Assembly (NCBI RefSeq): GCF_006385685.1
Contig: NZ_VFRP01000010.1
Span: forward strand, 1 to 64,000
From: Amaricoccus solimangrovi
Lineage (GTDB): Bacteria > Pseudomonadota > Alphaproteobacteria > Rhodobacterales > Rhodobacteraceae
DNA: 64,000 nucleotides
Direction: 5' to 3'
Positions 17,049-25,584 of this stretch are shown in pieces. Below the pieces are notes generated by a model that saw only the letters and a list, made by a program, of their open reading frames with translations, ran no database searches and was not told the origin of the DNA. Position 1 is the stretch's first letter, and each line of letters starts with the position of its first letter. A program made the position numbers and the translations under genes.

Positions 17049-18068
17049 ATGCTGATCCACAAGAACTGGCAGGAGCTGATTCGGCCCACCGCCCTCGAAA
17101 TCAAGGTCGGCGCCGACCCCCTCCGTCAGGCCACCGCCGTCGCCGAGCCGCTGGAGCGGGGCTTCGGCCTGACGCTCGGCAACGCGCTGCGCCGCGTGCT
17201 CCTGTCCTCGCTCCAGGGCGCCGCGATCACCAGCGTGCAGATCGACGGCGTGCTGCATGAATTCTCGTCGGTGCCGGGCGTTCGCGAGGACGTGACCGAC
17301 ATCGTGCTGAACCTCAAGGGCGTCGCGCTCAAGATGGAGGTCGAGGGTCCGAAGCGGGTCGAGATCCGCGCCACCGGCCCCGGCGTCGTCACCGCCGGCG
17401 ACATCCAGGTGACGAACGGGATCGAGGTGCTGAACCGCGATCACGTGATCTGCCATCTCGACGACGGCGCCTCGCTCTTCATGGAACTGACCGTGGAGCA
17501 GGGCAAGGCCTACGTCCCGGCCGACCGCAACCGGCCAGAGGACGCGCCGATCGGCCTCATCTCGGTCGACGCGCTGTTCTCGCCGATCAAGAAGGTGAGC
17601 TACAAGGTCGAGCCGACCCGCGAGGGCCAGGTGCTCGATTACGACAAGCTCACGCTGAACGTCGAGACCGACGGCTCGGTGAAGCCCGAGGATGCGATCG
17701 CCTACGCGGCCCGCATCCTGCAGGACCAGCTCTCGGTCTTCGTCAACTTCGAGGAGCCGACCGCCGGCACCCGGATGGACGAGGCGGACGATCTCGAGTT
17801 CAACCCGCTCCTCCTGAAGAAGGTGGACGAGCTCGAGCTTTCGGTGCGTTCGGCGAACTGCCTGAAGAACGACAACATCGTCTATATCGGCGACCTGATC
17901 CAGAAGACCGAGGCGGAGATGCTCCGGACCCCGAACTTCGGCCGCAAGTCGCTGAACGAGATCAAGGAGGTCCTGACCACGATGGGCCTGCATCTCGGGA
18001 TGGAGATCGTCGACTGGCCGCCGGAGAACATCGAGGATCTCGCGAAGAAGTACGAGGACCAGTTCTAA
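17049..18068 (+). CDS. rpoA: RNA polymerase alpha subunit
   Basis: 339 aa, standard. The N-terminal dimerisation domain includes [39 protein letters not shown]. The C-terminal DNA-binding domain includes [48 protein letters not shown], whose helix-hairpin-helix contacts UP elements and activators. Preceded by AATGGAGGATAGAGC. Confidence 0.98.
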
Positions 18069-18134
18069 GGAGCAGGCGGACCGAAGTCCGCCCTACGGGC
18101 GCCGATGGGGGGCGGACCTTGGTCCGCCTGCTCC
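18069..18134. repeat. REP-like double palindrome between rpoA and rplQ
   Basis: Two copies of GGCGGAC-N4-GTCCGCC (18075-18092 with loop CGAA; 18111-18128 with loop CTTG) flanked by GGAGCA and TGCTCC. The whole unit forms a 24-nt-arm inverted repeat with two mismatches, and each arm can also fold alone. The first copy continues with CTACGG, as does the copy at 40844-40867 on the other strand. It begins one base after the rpoA stop. Confidence 0.7.
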
Positions 18135-18230
18135 CGGCGCCCGACGACCCCGGGCAATCCCGCCCCAAGGAGGCGGTCCCACGAGAGGGCCGCCGGACAA
18201 AGCACAACCTGAGACGATAGGAAGAACGAC

Positions 18231-18650
18231 ATGCGCCACGGCAACGGCTACCGCAAGCTGAACCGCACCCACGAGCATCGCAAGGCGATGTTCGCCAACA
18301 TGGTCTCCTCGCTCATCGAGCACGAGCAGATCAAGACCACGCTCCCGAAGGCCAAGGAGCTGAAGCGGATCGCGGACCGGATCATCACGCTCGGCAAGCG
18401 CGGCGACCTGAACTCGCGCCGCATCGCCAGCTCCGAGCTGCGTCAGGACGCGGCGGTGAAGAAGCTCTTCGACACGCTCGCGCCCCGCTACAAGGAGCGC
18501 AACGGCGGCTATACCCGTGTGCTGAAGGCCGGCTTCCGCTATGGCGACGCCGCGCCGATGGCGATCATCGAACTCGTGGATCGCGACCCGGCCGCGAAGG
18601 GCGCCGCCGACAAGGCCCGCGTCGAGGCGGAACTGGCCGCCGAGGCCTGA
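18231..18650 (+). CDS. rplQ: 50S ribosomal protein L17
   Basis: 139 aa; near the tunnel exit. [38 protein letters not shown] is the L17 signature. The C-terminus has an Ala/Glu-rich end typical of the class. It is separated from rpoA by 162 nt containing the REP-like unit, and closes the alpha cluster. Confidence 0.97.
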
Positions 18651-18675
18651 TCGCCCGATCCATCCGGTTTCGCGG

Positions 18676-18701
18676 AAGGCCGTCCTTCGGGGCGGCCTTT
18701 G
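18676..18701 (+). terminator. UUCG-loop terminator after rplQ
   Basis: 10-bp stem AAGGCCGTCC / GGGCGGCCTT (one G-T wobble) closed by a TTCG tetraloop, then TGGTCTTT. It is 26 nt after the rplQ stop and ends the alpha cluster. Confidence 0.75.
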
Positions 18702-18720
18702 GTCTTTCCGGGGGGAGGCG

Positions 18721-18740
18721 TGGCGGACCGCGATCCGCCG
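18721..18740. repeat. Diverged REP-like palindrome
   Basis: GGCGGAC-CGCG-ATCCGCC (18722-18739), one mismatch from the GGCGGAC-N4-GTCCGCC unit at 18075 and 40850. It lies just after the rplQ terminator and before the 3' end of the leftward acetyltransferase. It may be a decayed copy of the same element. Confidence 0.4.
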
Positions 18741-18747
18741 TCGGACC

Positions 18748-19257
18748 TCAGAGCGTGCGGTACATCACCAGCGCGTCGACGTCGCCGAGCCGGGGATGCG
18801 CGAAGGCGCCGGGCAGGCGCCCGACGGTCTCGAACCCCATCCTCTCCCAGAGCCGGATCGCCCCTTCGTTGGTCGAGACGACGAAGTTGAACTGCATCGC
18901 GCGGTAGCCGCGCGCGCGGGCGAGATCGAGCGAATGCGCGCACATGGCCCGCGCAACCCCTTGGCCCCGCGCCGCCGCGCCGGTCACGTAGCCGCAGTTG
19001 CAGACATGCGCGCCGCCCCCCGGCTGGTTCGCCCGCAGGTAATAGGTGCCGAGCGCCTCGCCGTCGCGCTCGGCGATGAAGGTCTCGCGATCGGGGCCGA
19101 GCCAGTAGGCGAGGGTTTCCGCCTCGGAGAAGTCGCTCGGGATCGTGTAGGTGTCTCCCGCCCGGACCATCGGTTCGAGGATCGACCAGAGCGCGGCGCG
19201 GTCGCGCGCCTCGGCGGGGCGGATGACGAGGGGAGAAGCAGGCATCGGCATGTCCAT
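18748..19257 (-). CDS. GNAT-family N-acetyltransferase
   Basis: 169 aa. The acetyl-CoA-binding loop is GYVTGAAARGQGVARAMCAHSLDLARARG (R-x-x-G-x-G/A type), followed by FNFVVSTNEGAIRLWERMGFETVGRLPGAF. Similar proteins acetylate amino acids or antibiotics; the substrate here is unknown. The start is uncertain. ATG at 19257 (MDMPMPASPLVIRPA) is preferred because the fold begins at LVIRPAEARDRAAL; an in-frame ATG at 19302 would add 15 residues. Confidence 0.85.
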   Translation of the reverse strand: MDMPMPASPLVIRPAEARDRAALWSILEPMVRAGDTYTIPSDFSEAETLAYWLGPDRETFIAERDGEALGTYYLRANQPGGGAHVCNCGYVTGAAARGQGVARAMCAHSLDLARARGYRAMQFNFVVSTNEGAIRLWERMGFETVGRLPGAFAHPRLGDVDALVMYRTL

Positions 19258-19350
19258 CTGAATCCTGGGGCGCACCTGCGCACAATGCGCGCGCGGCGGC
19301 AAGACGCGCGCCCTTCCCCCCGGCGAAGCCAGGCCCTAGATGTCCTGATC

Positions 19351-20721
19351 ATGGCCGACCTGTTCGACGACCTTCCCCCGCCCACGCCGAAGCCGCGCCG
19401 CGCCGCCGCCGCGCCGCCGCCCGCGGAGCCGCGCGCCCCCCGCCGCGAAGGGCCGCGGCCGCTCGCGGACCGGCTTCGCCCCGTCACGCTCGACGAGGTG
19501 GTGGGGCAGGATCACCTGCTCGGACCCGGCGCGCCGCTGCGACGCATGCTCGCCGAGGGCAAGCTCGGCTCGATCGTATTCTGGGGCCCGCCCGGGGTCG
19601 GCAAGACGACCATCGCGCGCCTGCTCGCCGATGCGACCGACCTCTCCTTCCAGCAGGTGAGCGCGATCTTCACCGGGGTCGCGGACCTGCGCAGGATCTT
19701 CGAGGCGGCGCGGATCCGGCACGACAACGGCAGGGCGACGCTGCTCTTCGTCGACGAGATCCACCGGTTCAACCGCGCGCAGCAGGATGCCTTCCTGCCG
19801 CTGATGGAGGACGGGACCATCGTCCTCGTCGGCGCGACGACCGAGAATCCCTCCTTCGAACTCAACGCGGCGCTCCTGTCGCGCGCGCGGGTGCTGACCC
19901 TGCGCCCGCTGGTACCCGAAGCCCTCGGAAAGCTCGCGGCTCGCGCGGAGGCGACCCTCGGCCATCCGCTGCCGCTGACGCCCGAGGCGCGGAGCCAGCT
20001 CTTCGAGATGGCCGATGGCGACGGGCGCGCTCTCCTCAACATGATCGAGCAGATCGCCGAGGCGCGCGAGACCCTCGATGCGACGGCGCTCGGCGAGCGG
20101 CTGAGCCGACGGGCGATGCGTTTCGACAAGTCGGGGGAGGAGCATTACAACCTCATCTCCGCCCTGCACAAATCGGTGCGCGGCTCGGATCCCGACGCCG
20201 CGCTCTACTGGTTCGCGCGCATGCTGCGGGGCGGCGAGGATCCGCGTTTCCTCGCCCGGCGGATCACCCGGATGGCGGTCGAGGACATCGGCCTCGCCGA
20301 TCCCGCCGCGCAGCGCCTCTGTCTCGACGCCTGGAACACCTACGAACGCCTCGGCTCACCCGAGGGGGAACTCGCGCTGGCGGAGGCGGTTATCTATCTG
20401 GCGCTCGCGCCGAAATCGAACGCCGCCTACACCGCCTACAAGTCGGCGGTCGCCCTGGCGGAGAAGACAGGGTCGCTGACGCCGCCGAAGCACATTCTGA
20501 ACGCGCCGACCCGGCTGATGAAGGACGAAGGATACGGCAAGGGCTACATCTACGATCACGATCTCGCCTCCGGTTTCTCCGGCCAGTCCTATTTTCCGGA
20601 GGAGATGGAGCGGCCCGCGCTCTACCGGCCGGCGGGACACGGGGTCGAGCAGGATCTGAGGCAAAGGCTGGACTTTCTGGCCGAGGAGCGTGAAAGACTG
20701 CGAGGTTCCGCCCCGGATTGA
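19351..20721 (+). CDS. rarA: Replication-associated recombination protein A (AAA+ ATPase)
   Basis: 456 aa, standard for RarA/MgsA. It acts at stalled replication forks and is related to clamp-loader ATPases. Proline-rich N-terminus, then RPLADRLRPVTLDEVVGQDHLLG, Walker A GPPGVGKTTIARLLA, Walker B LLFVDEIHRFNRAQQDAFL and sensor 1 GATTENPSFELN. C-terminal tetramerisation region includes SAVALAEKTGSLTPPKHILNAPT. It shares the strand with the two BLUF genes just downstream. Confidence 0.95.
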   Translation: MADLFDDLPPPTPKPRRAAAAPPPAEPRAPRREGPRPLADRLRPVTLDEVVGQDHLLGPGAPLRRMLAEGKLGSIVFWGPPGVGKTTIARLLADATDLSFQQVSAIFTGVADLRRIFEAARIRHDNGRATLLFVDEIHRFNRAQQDAFLPLMEDGTIVLVGATTENPSFELNAALLSRARVLTLRPLVPEALGKLAARAEATLGHPLPLTPEARSQLFEMADGDGRALLNMIEQIAEARETLDATALGERLSRRAMRFDKSGEEHYNLISALHKSVRGSDPDAALYWFARMLRGGEDPRFLARRITRMAVEDIGLADPAAQRLCLDAWNTYERLGSPEGELALAEAVIYLALAPKSNAAYTAYKSAVALAEKTGSLTPPKHILNAPTRLMKDEGYGKGYIYDHDLASGFSGQSYFPEEMERPALYRPAGHGVEQDLRQRLDFLAEERERLRGSAPD

Positions 20722-20762
20722 TCTGAAACGTGTCCTTGCACGCGGAGGAGGAAACCGGCCAG

Positions 20763-21161
20763 ATGGCGGCCAGAAACCCGAGGGCGACACGCCCCGTTCT
20801 GCGGCTCACCTATGTCAGCCGTGCTTCCCGCCCGCTCGATCCGGAGGAACTCGCCGCGATCGGCCGGGCGGGGGAGCGCCGGAACGCACCCCTCGAACTC
20901 ACGGGAATGCTGATGCACAGGGGAGGGCGCTTCTTCGCCGTGCTGGAGGGACCGGAACCGGCGGTGCTCGGGCGGATGGAAGTCATCATCACCGACCCCC
21001 GTCACCGCGACCTCCGGATCCTCAGCGAGCAGCGGGTGCCGACGCGGCGATTCGAGAACTGGACCTTCGCCGCGCTGCCGGCGGCGGGCGGGACCGAGGC
21101 GGAAAGCGCGCTGCTCGCCATGCTCGCCGGAGGTTTGCCGCTTGGCATGCCTGATGACTGA
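20763..21161 (+). CDS. Short BLUF-fold protein, photochemical Gln replaced by Ala
   Basis: 132 aa, little more than a single BLUF (flavin blue-light sensor) domain. Compared with AppA, Tyr17 (LTYVSRAS) matches Tyr21, Asn41 (RRNAPLELTG) matches Asn45 and Trp100 matches Trp104. The FFQWLEG position reads FFAVLEG, so the essential Gln63 is Ala59 (codon 20937-20939). Flavin binding is possible, but the normal photocycle should be lost. ATG at 20763 is chosen because GGAGGAGG lies 11 nt upstream; a GTG at 20730 is an alternative. A second BLUF gene follows. Confidence 0.85.
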   Translation: MAARNPRATRPVLRLTYVSRASRPLDPEELAAIGRAGERRNAPLELTGMLMHRGGRFFAVLEGPEPAVLGRMEVIITDPRHRDLRILSEQRVPTRRFENWTFAALPAAGGTEAESALLAMLAGGLPLGMPDD

Positions 21162-21221
21162 ATGCCGGATGGTCAAAATACCTCTCACGCGCGAAGGTTG
21201 CAGTGTGCTTCACCTGGACAC

Positions 21222-21250
21222 TTGACATAAAACTTTATCGAATAAAAACA
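21222..21250 (+). promoter_or_regulatory. AT-rich promoter candidate before the second BLUF gene
   Basis: TTGACA at 21222-21227 followed by an AT-rich run (ACTTTATCGAATAAAAACA) that is unusual in this GC-rich DNA. A precise -10 hexamer is not clear; the GAATAAAA patch is the best candidate. It suggests the second BLUF gene has its own promoter in the 209-nt gap. Confidence 0.4.
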
Positions 21251-21370
21251 TGGGCGCCGGAAGGGTTGTGGCTAATCGCATGACGCCACGTCGCCGTTTC
21301 GGAACAAAAATCGAGTGCCGGCCGCCTGGGTGACTGCCAGTCCCAAGTCGCCGCTTACGGGAGGGCGATC

Positions 21371-21817
21371 ATGGGGTGCGGCGGCGACGTCTCATTCGTT
21401 CACTTCAGCTTCGTGTCGCGGGTCGCCCCCGCCTTGCCGGAGGCCGCGCTGCGGCGGATCGCCCGCGCCGCGACCCGGCGCAACCGGGAGCTGGGCCTGA
21501 CGGGAGAGCTGCGCTTCGAGGGAAGCCGCTTCGCCCAGGTGATCGAAGGCCCCTGCGACGCGGTCATGGTCGTGGCCTGCGACATCCTGGCCGATCCCCG
21601 GCACCAGCGGATCGAGGTCCGGCGCTTCGAACCGGTCGAGAGCCGGAGCCACGCGGAATGGCAGGTGGTCGGGCTCGACGATTCGCAGCTGTTCTGCGCG
21701 CTGCGCGCCGCGAGCGCGACGCCGGCGGAGACCGCCGGACCGAGGATCGGCCGCCTCGCCGCCGTGGTGACGGAACCCCACGCCTCGCCGCGGGCGCTGG
21801 CCGACCGGCGCGCTTGA
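21371..21817 (+). CDS. Short BLUF-fold protein, photochemical Tyr replaced by Phe
   Basis: 148 aa: one BLUF domain (about residues 8-100) plus a short Ala/Pro-rich tail. Asn38 (RRNRELGLTG), Gln56 (RFAQVIEG) and Trp97 match the AppA pocket. The essential Tyr21 position is Phe14 (FSFVSRVA, codon 21410-21412). AppA Tyr-to-Phe variants bind flavin but do not signal, so this domain should also be light-inactive by the canonical route. It is the mirror image of its neighbour, which has the Tyr but not the Gln. ATG at 21371 follows GGGAGGGCGATC. Confidence 0.82.
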   Translation: MGCGGDVSFVHFSFVSRVAPALPEAALRRIARAATRRNRELGLTGELRFEGSRFAQVIEGPCDAVMVVACDILADPRHQRIEVRRFEPVESRSHAEWQVVGLDDSQLFCALRAASATPAETAGPRIGRLAAVVTEPHASPRALADRRA

Positions 21818-21918
21818 CATTCGGCCGCGCGCGGCGCCTTTGAACGCCTCGGGAAAAGGGGGCGAACGGTGGACGTGCGCGATCTGACAGGCCGGGTTCC
21901 GGTGGGCGCGGGGCCGCG

Positions 21919-22965
21919 ATGAGCGGGGTTCAGCGTATCCTGGTGACGCCGGACGAGGGCGAGCAGCGGCTGGACCGCTGGCTCCGCCGTCGCTATCCGC
22001 ATGTGCCGCAATCGCTGGTGGAACGGCTCTGCCGCAAGGGCGAGATCCGGGTCGACGGCGGGCGGGTCCGCGCCGCGACGAAGCTCGAGCCCGGCCAGGA
22101 GGTGCGCCTGCCGCCGCTGCCCGAGGCGGCGCAGGCCTCCGAGCGTCCCCGGGAGACGCGGATCTCGGAGGCGGACGCGGAGATGATGCGCGCGAGCGTC
22201 ATCTATCGCGACGCCGACGTGCTGGCGCTCAACAAGCCGCCGGGACTCGCGGTCCAGGGCGGCTCGGGGCAGAGCCGGCATGTCGACGCGCTGGCCGAGG
22301 CGCTGAGGTTCGAGCGAGAGGACAAGCCCCGCCTGGTCCACCGCCTCGACCGCGACACCTCCGGCGTGCTGCTCCTCGCGCGCAGCCCGAGGGCGGCGCA
22401 GGGGCTCGCGAAGGCCTTCCAGGCGCGGGACGCGCGCAAGATCTACTGGGCGGTGGTGGCCGGCAGGCCGGCGCCGGAACTCGGCACGATCCGCTACGGC
22501 CTCGTCAAGGCGCCGGGCCATGGCGCCGGCGGCGAGGGCGAGAAGATGCGGGTGGTCCCGCCCGATCAGGTCGCCGCGGTGGAAGGCGCGCGCCGCGCGA
22601 CGACGGACTACCGCGTGATCGAGGCCGCGGGAAACCGCGCCGCCTGGGTCGCGCTGGCGCCGATCACGGGCCGCACGCACCAGTTGCGCGCGCATATGGC
22701 GGCGATCGGGCATCCGATCATCGGCGACGGCAAGTACGGCGGCAACAGCCAGGTGAACGAGGGCGAGGGCTGGGGGGCGCAGCTCGGCGGCGGGATCAGC
22801 CGCAAGCTGCACCTGCACGCCCGTCATCTCGAGATCCGCCACCCCGTCACCGGCGCGCGGCTGAGCCTGACCGCTCCCTTGCCCGAGCACATGCGGCGGA
22901 CCTGGGACTTCTTTGGCTGGCGCGCCGAGGACGCCGCCAGCGATCCATTCGAGGAATTGAGATGA
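21919..22965 (+). CDS. rluC: 23S rRNA pseudouridine synthase, RluC type
   Basis: 348 aa. An N-terminal S4 RNA-binding domain (QRLDRWLRRRYPHVPQSLVERLCRKGEIRVDG) precedes the RluA-family catalytic domain with HRLDRDTSGVLLLAR, catalytic Asp144. GRTHQLRAHMAAIGHPIIGDGKYG is the family C-terminal motif. RluC makes pseudouridines 955, 2504 and 2580 in E. coli 23S rRNA. RluC versus RluD is judged from length and S4 layout. Overlaps the HAD gene by 4 nt. Confidence 0.88.
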   Translation: MSGVQRILVTPDEGEQRLDRWLRRRYPHVPQSLVERLCRKGEIRVDGGRVRAATKLEPGQEVRLPPLPEAAQASERPRETRISEADAEMMRASVIYRDADVLALNKPPGLAVQGGSGQSRHVDALAEALRFEREDKPRLVHRLDRDTSGVLLLARSPRAAQGLAKAFQARDARKIYWAVVAGRPAPELGTIRYGLVKAPGHGAGGEGEKMRVVPPDQVAAVEGARRATTDYRVIEAAGNRAAWVALAPITGRTHQLRAHMAAIGHPIIGDGKYGGNSQVNEGEGWGAQLGGGISRKLHLHARHLEIRHPVTGARLSLTAPLPEHMRRTWDFFGWRAEDAASDPFEELR

Positions 22966-23648
22966 CCGAGACGCAGCTTGTCGTCTTCGATGTCGACGGC
23001 ACGCTCATCGACAGCCAGCACCTGATCGTCGCGGCGATGGAGGAGGGATTCCGCGCCGAGGGGCTCGCGCCGCCGTCGCGCGCGGAGATCCTCGGGATCG
23101 TCGGCCTCTCGCTGCCGCGCGCGGTCGAGGCGCTGGCCCCGGAGCTTCCGGAGGCGACGCTGGAACGGCTCGCGGAGGGCTATCGCCAGGCCTTCGTCGC
23201 GGCGCGCGAGCGCGGCGGGGCGGAGGCGCACGCGCCGCTTTATCCGGGCGCGCGGGAGGCGCTCGACCGGCTGCGCGCCGATCCCGGCGTCCTGCTCGGC
23301 GTCGCGACCGGCAAGGCGCGGCGCGGGCTCGACCATGTGCTGGAGAGCCACGACCTGCGGGATCTCTTCGTGACGACGCAGACGGCGGACGAGCATCCCT
23401 CGAAGCCGCATCCCTCGATGCTCGAGACCGCGCTCGTCGAGACCGGGGCGCGGGCGGAGCGCGCGGTGATGGTCGGCGACACGGAATTCGACATCGCGAT
23501 GGGCCGGGCCGCGGGTTTCGCGACGATCGGCGTCGCCTGGGGCTATCATCCGCGCGCGCGGCTGGAGGCCGCCGGGGCCGACCGGGTGATCGAGGATTTC
23601 GCGGCGCTCGACGCCGCGCTGGCAGCGCTCCTGGGAGAGCGGGCATGA
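22962..23648 (+). CDS. HAD-superfamily phosphatase, phosphoglycolate phosphatase-like
   Basis: 228 aa. Motif I DVDGTLID (nucleophile Asp10, acid Asp12), motif II region GVATGKARRGLDH and motif IV MVGDTEFDIAMGRAAG show an active subfamily IA hydrolase with an alpha-helical cap. The substrate is uncertain; phosphoglycolate or a similar small phosphate ester is a guess from family. It is translationally coupled to rluC upstream and to the ATP12 gene downstream (ATGA overlaps on both sides). Confidence 0.85.
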   Translation: MTETQLVVFDVDGTLIDSQHLIVAAMEEGFRAEGLAPPSRAEILGIVGLSLPRAVEALAPELPEATLERLAEGYRQAFVAARERGGAEAHAPLYPGAREALDRLRADPGVLLGVATGKARRGLDHVLESHDLRDLFVTTQTADEHPSKPHPSMLETALVETGARAERAVMVGDTEFDIAMGRAAGFATIGVAWGYHPRARLEAAGADRVIEDFAALDAALAALLGERA

Positions 23649-24370
23649 GCTGGAAGCCGCGGCGGAAGTTCTGGGACGAGGTCAGCGTCGCGCCGGCGGA
23701 GGCGGGCCACACGGTCCGGCTCGATGCCCGCGAACTCCGGACCCCGGGCCAGGCGCCGCTCGTCGTCCCGACCGCCGCGCTCGCCGAGGCGATCGCCGGC
23801 GAATGGCGCGCGATCACCGGCGAGATCGATCCCGAGATCCTGCACTATACCAAGGCGGCCAATACCGCGATCGACCGTGTCTCGCGCGAGCGGGAGGCGG
23901 TGATCGACGCGATCGCCGCCTATGGCGACAGCGACCTGCTCTGCTATCGCGCGGAGGAGCCGGAAGGGCTGGCGGCGCGGCAGAAGGCCGCGTGGCAGCC
24001 CTGGCTCGACTGGGCGGAGGCGGCATTCGGCGCGGCGCTGGTTCCCGTCCGGGGCGTGATGCACCGCGCCCAGGACGCGGCGAGCCTCGCGGCGCTGCGG
24101 CGCGAGGTCGCCCGCTTCGACGCGCTCGGCCTCACCGCGCTCTACGATCTGGTGACGCTCTCCGGTTCGCTCGTTCTCGGGCTCGCCGTCGCCCGGGGCG
24201 CGCTCGCCGGCGCCGAGGCCTGGGAGATCTCGCGCCTCGACGAGATCTGGCAGGCCGAGCAATGGGGCGTCGATCTGGAGGCCGAGCAGGCGGCGGAGGT
24301 GCGCCGCGTGGCGTTCCTGCGCGCCGAAACGCTGCTCGGGCTGCTGGGGACCGACGAGATATCGTCCTGA
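23645..24370 (+). CDS. ATP12-family F1-ATPase assembly chaperone
   Basis: 241 aa. WKPRRKFWDEVSVAP, LDARELRTPGQAPLVVPTAALAEAIAGEW and HYTKAANTAIDRVSREREAVIDAIAAYGDSDLLCYRAEEP are the ATP12 signature. The mitochondrial homologue protects the F1 alpha subunit before assembly; a like role in alphaproteobacteria is inferred from homology. It is the last gene of the rluC-HAD-ATP12 block, with a 4-nt overlap upstream. Confidence 0.92.
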   Translation: MSWKPRRKFWDEVSVAPAEAGHTVRLDARELRTPGQAPLVVPTAALAEAIAGEWRAITGEIDPEILHYTKAANTAIDRVSREREAVIDAIAAYGDSDLLCYRAEEPEGLAARQKAAWQPWLDWAEAAFGAALVPVRGVMHRAQDAASLAALRREVARFDALGLTALYDLVTLSGSLVLGLAVARGALAGAEAWEISRLDEIWQAEQWGVDLEAEQAAEVRRVAFLRAETLLGLLGTDEISS

Positions 24371-24456
24371 TCTGCGCTAATACCACTCAAGCTTGTGCCC
24401 GGTTGCCTGAGGCGCGGACAGATCAGCGCGGGATTCATGGTCGCGCTGCCTTTTCC

Positions 24457-24485
24457 TTGACCTTTTGAACGGTCCTGTCAATTTT
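24457..24485 (+). promoter_or_regulatory. Promoter candidate upstream of aapJ
   Basis: TTGACC at 24457-24462 and AATTTT at 24480-24485 with a 17-nt spacer in the 197-nt gap before aapJ. The -35 is good, the -10 weak. An activator or sigma54 site was looked for (GG-N10-GC) without a convincing match. Confidence 0.35.
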
Positions 24486-24567
24486 CTGGCAACGCCCGCG
24501 GGGAAACCACCCCCGGGCCTTGCCCCTCGCGTCCAGGCTGGCGCGCGACAGAACCAAAAGGGTAGCC

Positions 24568-25584
24568 ATGAGACATTCTCTGATCCTCGGAACCACGCTC
24601 GCGCTGACGCTCGGGGCGGTGAGCGCGGCCTCGGCCGCGACGCTCGATGAAGTGAAGGCGCGTGGCACGCTCAAATGCGGCTCGAACCCCGGCCTCGCGG
24701 GCTTCGCGGCGCCCGACGCCAACGGCGTCTGGCACGGTTTCGACGTCGACGTGTGCTACGCGCTGGCCGCGGCCATCTTCGGCGATCCCGCGAAGGTCGA
24801 GTTCACGCCGCTCTCGGGCGAGACGCGCTTCACCGCGCTCGCCTCGGGCGAGGTCGACGTTCTGGTGCGCAACTCCACCTGGACCTTCTCCCGCGACGTC
24901 GACCTGAAGCTCGATTTCGTCGGCGTGAACTACTACGACGGGCAGGGCTTCATCGTCTCGAAGGATCTCGGCGTCACCTCGGCGAAGGAGCTCGACGGCG
25001 CCACGGTCTGCATCCAGACCGGCACCACGACCGAACTCAACCTCGCCGATTTCTTCAAGGCCAACGGCATGAGCTACCAGCCGGTGCCGATCCAGACCGA
25101 GGCCGAGGCGCGGCAGCAGTTCCTCGCCGGCGCCTGCGATTCCTATACGACCGACGCCTCCGGCCTCGCCGCCGTCCGCGCGACCTACCCGAACCCCGAG
25201 AACTACATCATCCTGCCCGAGATCATCTCGAAGGAGCCGCTCGGCCCGGCCGTGCGCCACGGCGACAACCAGTGGGGCGACATCGTCCGCTGGACATTCA
25301 ACGCCCTGGTCGAGGCCGAGGAACTCGGCGTGACCAAGGACAATCTCGACGAGATGAAGAATTCCGACAATCCGGAGATCCGCCGGCTGCTCGGTGTCGA
25401 GGGCAATCTCGGCGGCATGTTCGGGCTCAGCCCCGACTGGGCCTATAACGCCATCAAGGCGAACGGCAACTACGGCGAGATCTTCGCCGCCACGATCGGC
25501 GAGGGCACCCCGTCCAACCTCGCCCGCGGGCTGAACGCCCAGTGGAAGGACGGCGGCCTGATGTACTCGCCGCCGTTCCGCTGA
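24568..25584 (+). CDS. aapJ: General L-amino acid ABC transporter, periplasmic binding protein
   Basis: 338 aa. Signal peptide MRHSLILGTTLALTLGAVSAASA (ATG 24568), then the solute-binding fold: LKCGSNPGLAGFAAPDANGVWHGFDVDVCYALAAAIFGD and RNSTWTFSRDVDLKLDFVGVNYYDGQGF. This is AapJ of Rhizobium / BztA of Rhodobacter, which binds glutamate, glutamine, aspartate, asparagine and other L-amino acids. First gene of the four-gene operon aapJQMP. Confidence 0.94.
   Translation: MRHSLILGTTLALTLGAVSAASAATLDEVKARGTLKCGSNPGLAGFAAPDANGVWHGFDVDVCYALAAAIFGDPAKVEFTPLSGETRFTALASGEVDVLVRNSTWTFSRDVDLKLDFVGVNYYDGQGFIVSKDLGVTSAKELDGATVCIQTGTTTELNLADFFKANGMSYQPVPIQTEAEARQQFLAGACDSYTTDASGLAAVRATYPNPENYIILPEIISKEPLGPAVRHGDNQWGDIVRWTFNALVEAEELGVTKDNLDEMKNSDNPEIRRLLGVEGNLGGMFGLSPDWAYNAIKANGNYGEIFAATIGEGTPSNLARGLNAQWKDGGLMYSPPFR

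Follow-up and report, generated by a model that had tools for sequence, protein, structure and literature searches.

What job is left to two adjacent BLUF proteins when neither of them holds a complete photochemical Tyr/Gln pair? The two genes, referred to here as A and B, lie side by side in a 64,000-nucleotide stretch of the Amaricoccus solimangrovi genome, the whole of which we call the window. In a BLUF domain the photochemical Tyr and Gln both belong to one flavin pocket, and such domains are often defined by this pair, a definition outside which the window proteins fall. The pattern of a published BLUF survey (PMC4844311) demands both Tyr and Gln, and it is matched by neither A nor B. 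A preliminary description of the locus read the two losses as complementary, with the Tyr kept in A and the Gln in B, and proposed a conserved tandem pair with an otherwise intact pocket and a new job.

Results

Gene A (20763..21161, + strand; 132 aa, start codon ATG at 20763) was assigned from its open reading frame, Pfam, structural model and alignment, and is preceded by a ribosome-binding-like site, GGAGGAGG (20744..20751, +). Gene B (21371..21817, +; 148 aa, start codon ATG at 21371) was assigned on the same four grounds and follows a site of the same kind, GGGAGGG (21359..21365, +). The upstream neighbour of A is an open reading frame of the rarA type (19351..20721, +), and the gene downstream of B, from its open reading frame and from locus comparison, is a pseudouridine synthase gene of the rluC type (21919..22965, +). 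On re-reading the sequence, the frames, coordinates and codons of both BLUF genes were as the preliminary description gave them, and the substitutions themselves were confirmed: A has the photochemical Tyr (Tyr17, codon 20811-20813, +) and Ala59 (GCC, 20937..20939, +) at the Gln slot, and B has Phe14 (TTC, 21410..21412, +) at the Tyr slot and the photochemical Gln (Gln56, codon 21536-21538, +). Two features of functional BLUF proteins are absent from both, namely Tyr and Gln in one domain (A is Tyr17/Ala59 and B is Phe14/Gln56) and the strand-5 Met for signal transfer, at whose slot the sequence and alignment place Phe102 in A (21066..21068, +) and Val99 in B (21665..21667, +). The claim that the pocket is otherwise intact was not borne out: A has Asn41, Asp78, Arg80, His81 and Trp100, and B has Asn38, Asp75, Arg77, His78 and Trp97, so that Asn, Asp-x-Arg-His and Trp are present in both window proteins, but the strand-5 Met is gone in both. 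A sequencing error at the odd codons is unlikely: separate assemblies agree in placing a small amino acid where the Gln would stand in 10/10 A proteins, and Phe where the Tyr would stand in 4/9 B proteins.

Both proteins score well above the cut-off of 25 bits for the Pfam BLUF family (PF04940; 84.8 bits for A and 70.4 bits for B), the Pfam search gave no further domain in either, and they are the exactly two BLUF matches in their own genome (135 contigs); among 8 relatives scored, 7 were above the cut-off and A of genome G067 was below it (17.4 bits). The AlphaFold2 models (pLDDT 88.7 for A and 81.0 for B) have the BLUF fold and one C-terminal helix, with the tail of B scoring low after residue 116 and having no confident fold. 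The best Foldseek match of both models is AppA 1yrx (E = 1.1e-10 for A and 1.5e-9 for B), the PDB lists also include Tll0078/TePixD, Slr1694, OaPAC and BlrB, and the TePixD Y8F structure 8i98 is in the top ten for each. Sequence and predicted fold together place A and B in the BLUF family.

Family profile searches covered 394 genomes, one per genus except for the window's own genus, which is represented by 11 genomes including the window's. The A-B tandem is present in 8 genomes from three genera, in the same order and at the same locus between rarA and crcB/rluC (crcB being a fluoride channel gene): five of the 11 genomes of the window's genus (G000, which is the window's, G003, G006, G008 and G009), G067 from a second genus, and G373 and G460 from a third, the pairs of G067, G373 and G460 being recognised by residues, adjacency and locus. 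A is found without B in G001 and G004, and B without A in G461, the third sampled member of the genus of G373 and G460. Some BLUF gene is present in 9 of the 11 genomes of the window's genus; neither A nor B is found in 4/11 (G002, G005, G007 and G010), of which G002 and G010 have other BLUFs with Tyr/Gln. The proposal of a conserved tandem was thus borne out by order and locus in 8 genomes and 3 genera, and the co-occurrence of its members held in those genomes and broke down where A (G001, G004) or B (G461) stands alone. We conclude that A and B are a real, old gene pair; an accident of a single genome was rejected, as the pair is found across several genomes and genera. One scan for viral relatives of the pair returned none.

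Among the matches listed for the 394 genomes, adjacent BLUFs (≤1.5 kb) occur in G000, G067, G373 and G360 only, and the three BLUFs of G360 lie at a locus other than rarA-rluC. This locus (L216, G360:C1:1269500-1277000) has three BLUF matches within ~2 kb, one of them with an internal stop, and Phe replaces Trp in two of the three. Two of the searches, those with the profiles A4 and A5, cannot prove the pair absent from other genera, because their top three matches were in the profiles themselves and because A of G460, which was outside the profiles, scored 76 bits, as canonical BLUFs also do.

G002, G007 and G010 have the simple order rarA-crcB-rluC, which is also found, at the best rarA matches, in 25/28 further genera, crcB or rluC being missing from the stretch examined in the remaining 3/28. 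By tblastn and profile search, no BLUF gene was found at the rarA locus in 29 other loci (the 28 genera and G002). All 10 loci with A have a rarA homologue directly upstream of it (G000, G001, G003, G004, G006, G008, G009, G067, G373 and G460). The order is rarA-A-B-crcB-rluC in G009, G067, G373 and G460, and rarA-A-B-rluC, with crcB not between, in G000, G003, G006 and G008 (the last spread over two contigs); G001 has rarA-A-rluC, and G004 has rarA-A and rluC on separate contigs. In the window, the interval from B to rluC (21817-21919) gave no crcB homologue, nor was one found before rluC in G001, G003, G006 and G008. Two loci from two other genera (L254 and L263) carry ~1 kb of additional sequence, with no BLUF gene in it, between rarA and crcB, and judged from these the rarA-crcB site may be tolerant of insertions.

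Residues at the photochemical slots were counted from a common profile alignment of 10 A proteins and 9 B proteins. At the Gln slot, 7 of the A proteins have Gly, 2 have Ala and 1 has Ser, with Gln in 0/10; at the Tyr slot, 5 have Tyr, 4 have Phe and 1 has Trp. The Trp belongs to A of G006 (L008), which has Gly at the Gln slot. Among the B proteins, 4 carry Phe/Gln, all four from genomes of the window's genus, another 4 carry Tyr/Gln, and 1 carries Tyr/Glu. The strict pattern of the window, A with Tyr and no Gln beside B with Phe/Gln, is found in 3/8 pairs (G000, G003 and G008). The other combinations include A Tyr/Gly with B Tyr/Gln in G009, A Phe/Gly or Phe/Ser with B Tyr/Gln in G373 and G460, and A Phe/Ala with B Tyr/Glu in G067. 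Complementary loss as a conserved feature was therefore not borne out, and relatives with the canonical Tyr and Gln in one gene, which the preliminary description had itself named as evidence against it, were found in B (4/9). Judged from these alignments, the complementary Tyr/Gln symmetry is a local snapshot and not the conserved feature; the Gln loss in A is old, since it is common to all A proteins examined, and the Phe of B is derived within the window's genus. We also considered whether two subunits might complement each other's Tyr and Gln in trans; the two residues belong to one flavin pocket, and pairs with other residue combinations exist. Phe is found in both A and B in 0/8 pairs, and we do not claim a trade of the Tyr between the two genes, the pattern being clade-bound (hand-computed chance without phylogeny, 5/70).

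For background we surveyed 154 other BLUFs among the matches listed, almost all of them from genomes of the same family: 147 have Tyr/Gln, 6 are without Tyr or Gln, and 1 is cut off. The broken pairs are Tyr/His (L024), Ile/Glu (L031), Tyr/Arg (L102), Phe/Gln (L108), His/Gln (L124) and Tyr/Gly (L188, with the pocket Asn gone too). The strand-5 Met, at the position two after the Trp, is Met in 143/154 of these BLUFs (among the matches listed; three of the 11 not scored Met are unreadable there). It is absent from 10/10 A proteins (G067 and G373 judged on a separate alignment), and among the 9 B proteins it is lost in 8 and displaced in 1: the slot is Val in G000, G003, G006 and G008 (G008 from a separate contig piece), Ser in G009, Phe in G067, Leu in G460 and Cys in G461, and G373 has a Met one residue downstream of it. 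Of the six broken-pair BLUFs elsewhere, L024, L108 and L124 have lost the strand-5 Met and L031, L102 and L188 have it. L108, with Phe/Gln and Val, has the residue set of window B. Elsewhere in the pocket, A is without Asn in G067 and G460, without Asp-Arg-His in G067 and G373, and without Trp in G067, G373 and G460; the A proteins of G067, G373 and G460 may be without flavin binding.

In a tree of 173 BLUFs (few columns, bootstrap unsettled, duplicates of the A/B loci left out), the A proteins fall to one side of a branch with 97/92 support, the branch leading to A of G067 being very long, and B forms a single fork (90/83) within the Tyr/Gln proteins. A and B are not sisters in this tree, and a recent tandem duplication into complementary copies is not supported. 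On the B tree the four Phe/Gln proteins form a group (97/57) that excludes the Tyr/Gln B of G009, whereas the rarA+rluC tree instead groups G000, G001, G008 and G009 (92/98); since the two trees differ, one or two Tyr-to-Phe changes are possible in B. In the rarA+rluC tree (38 rows, midpoint root; short rows o_G120, o_G250, o_G399, G461 and G005 left out), carriers sit close to the base among the rows sampled, with support of 100/99 for the window's genus and 100/100 for G373+G460, followed by G067 grouped with one non-carrier (96/91). The simplest reading is vertical descent with losses, horizontal transfer being also possible.

The frame is open over the BLUF domain in 19/19 genes, for B of G008 only up to the contig end. 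Within its open frame, A of G008 (L005) has no ATG, GTG or TTG before the BLUF domain, and the sole candidate start of A in G009 is an ATG 68 codons upstream of the domain; in these two genes the start may be absent or of an unusual kind, the assembly may be at fault, or the gene may be decaying. Third codon positions are the most divergent in 21/21 comparisons of A (7 of 10 genes) and in 5/6 of B (4 of 9), as would be expected for coding genes under some constraint. This contrast of codon positions was used instead of dN/dS because pS is too high (0.47-0.65 in 21/21 A and 0.45-0.57 in 6/6 B comparisons, in a GC-rich genome). Core identity within the genus is 36-57% for A and 35-53% for B, as compared with 61-64% when three copies of a canonical BLUF from the genus are set against each other, and by this measure A and B diverge faster than the canonical BLUF. 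The distances of A track those of B beyond rarA+rluC (partial r = 0.55, permutation p = 0.035, 7 pairs, G008, whose B is split over two contigs, being left out), a weak mirror test that is suggestive only of co-divergence.

From the stop of A to the start of B, both codons included, there are 23-41 bases in G067, G373 and G460, and 81 to 215 bases in the window's genus. The A-B spacer holds TTGAC in 5/5 pairs of the window's genus, in the window as TTGACA (21222..21227, +), a motif that we picked after inspection; with that same choice of motif, its presence in 5/5 spacers was reached in 0/5000 mononucleotide shuffles. No site emerged when 20600-22000 was scanned with a promoter consensus. The spacer TTGAC is perhaps a promoter for B.

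Discussion

Laboratory mutants of other BLUF proteins bear on what the natural substitutions would do. PMC7005313 describes that replacement of Y21 or Q63 in AppA abolishes the red shift, and that AppA Y21F/Y56F/W64F retains flavin, is photoinactive and is light-adapted-like. PixD Y8F is described as locked in the light-signalling state, and PixD M93A as functionally locked in the signalling state, its spectrum still shifting without conformational change (PMC5899715). PMC6695109 describes Slr1694 Q50A and AppA Q63E as pseudo-lit, BlsA Q51A cells as lit-like in their behaviour in the dark, and BlsA Y7A cells as dark-like. Finally, PMC10799861 describes AppA Y21F as incapable of photoactivation, with Trp giving up an electron to the excited flavin.

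We infer a permanent signalling state for the natural pair because Gln-to-Ala, Tyr-to-Phe and Met-to-Ala each hold PixD lit-like (as Gln-to-Glu does AppA); by analogy with these mutants, the window pair is most likely uncoupled from light and constitutively signalling. Both window proteins would fold and bind flavin, to judge from the presence of Asn and Asp-x-Arg-His, and both would be unable to make the light-driven hydrogen-bond switch. The strand-5 Met, which couples the flavin pocket to output, is lost or displaced in both lines. The substitutions found in A (Gln to Ala and Met to Phe) and in B (Tyr to Phe and Met to Val) are of the kinds that hold BLUFs in the signalling conformation, such that the seemingly complementary losses would have equal effect. 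These results suggest an old sensor module that is now partly or wholly uncoupled from light, and a light-independent job for the pair can fairly be inferred. The best explanation, which we favour with clear reservations, would be that A and B are permanently in the signalling conformation and act as a light-independent regulator, together or on a shared partner. The broader proposal, put forward more tentatively still, is that evolution installed lit-locking kinds of substitution in both proteins, giving a permanent light-independent module, possibly a heteromer, that descended mostly vertically in a reaction-centre-less relative of Rhodobacter.

Several points stand against a lit-locked pair. 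BlsA Y7A is dark-like (PMC6695109), though the replacement there is Ala and not Phe; the natural residues (Gly, Ser, Val, and Phe at the Met slot) differ from those of the mutants assayed; the A proteins of G067, G373 and G460 are short of further pocket residues; and both genes diverge fast, 4/11 of the genus have neither, and the A starts of G008 and G009 are irregular. The chief rival is decay, in which a former photoreceptor pair was lost by drift and the odd residues reflect relaxed constraint. Fast divergence of both genes, the mixed Tyr slot of A, the lone A of G001 and G004, the lone B of G461, the genomes of the genus with neither gene (4/11), A of G008 without ATG, GTG or TTG before its domain, and the lack of a reaction-centre match in the own genome all speak for drift. 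We nevertheless regard decay as somewhat unlikely, in that 19/19 frames are open over the domain parts examined, third codon positions are the most divergent in 21/21 A and 5/6 B comparisons, locus and order are retained over three genera, and TTGAC, though picked after inspection, stands in 5/5 spacers of the genus.

A division of labour is conceivable in which B is or was the light sensor, A is a dead subunit shaping the oligomer, and B has become blind only in the window's group. Such an arrangement would account for Tyr/Gln in 4/9 B proteins, of which those of G009, G373 and G460 have a Gln-less A next to them, and for the 23-41 bases between A stop and B start in G067, G373 and G460, as in one transcript. 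We think it rather improbable, however, as the Tyr/Gln B proteins are also without the strand-5 Met (Ser, Leu, Cys) or have it displaced, window B is without the Tyr, and PixD M93A shifts its spectrum without conformational change (PMC5899715).

The pair might alternatively sense redox state or a ligand, the oxidation state of the flavin being read out with Trp as electron donor and not through a Tyr/Gln switch. The window proteins do have Asn, Asp-x-Arg-His and Trp, and excited flavin takes an electron from Trp in Tyr-to-Phe mutants (PMC10799861); but Asn is gone in A of G067 and G460, Asp-Arg-His in A of G067 and G373, and Trp in A of G067, G373 and G460, which makes such a sensor a distinctly unlikely one. 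That A and B are unrelated neighbours sharing a locus by chance, with no joint function, would fit their separate positions in the BLUF tree and the finding of each without the other, and is very improbable given the same order and locus in 8 genomes, the tight spacing in three and the weak co-divergence.

In the literature searched, which comprised titles and abstract openings with subscription papers mostly outside, no natural BLUF pair of this kind is described. A pair kept in three genera while lacking the usual photochemistry would be a natural exit from light sensing with the signalling surface retained, and would supply possibly lit-locked natural proteins in which the route of the BLUF signal out of the flavin pocket could be studied.

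Comparison with known systems

Among known systems, PixD (Slr1694; Tll0078/TePixD) is, like A and B, a short BLUF with a C-terminal helix, and it matches them in sequence and fold. Its mutants Y8F, Q50A and M93A carry the same kinds of change as the natural proteins, whereas wild-type PixD, unlike A and B, has Tyr8, Gln50 and Met93 and is photoactive. PixD works through PixE, and among the open reading frames overlapping 18000-25000 no PixE-type response regulator was recognised by eye; PixD is also not known to be paired with a Gln-less BLUF.

The BLUF domain of AppA, the best structural match, differs from A and B in having Tyr21 and Gln63. AppA also has Met106 and a PpsR-linked C-terminal part. 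The AppA/PpsR system controls photosynthesis genes, whereas the own genome of the pair has no match to the reaction-centre family Photo_RC (PF00124, the one family searched for; a control matched Synechococcus elongatus). BlrB (2byc), a short BLUF, is the PDB entry that matches B best in sequence (E = 4.3e-13) and differs from window B in having Tyr, Gln and Met at all three slots. A further parallel lies outside the family, in LOV receptors without the active-site glutamine: these too are flavin light sensors missing a residue held essential (PMC9098866), with the difference that they have the LOV fold and form a covalent flavin-cysteine adduct.
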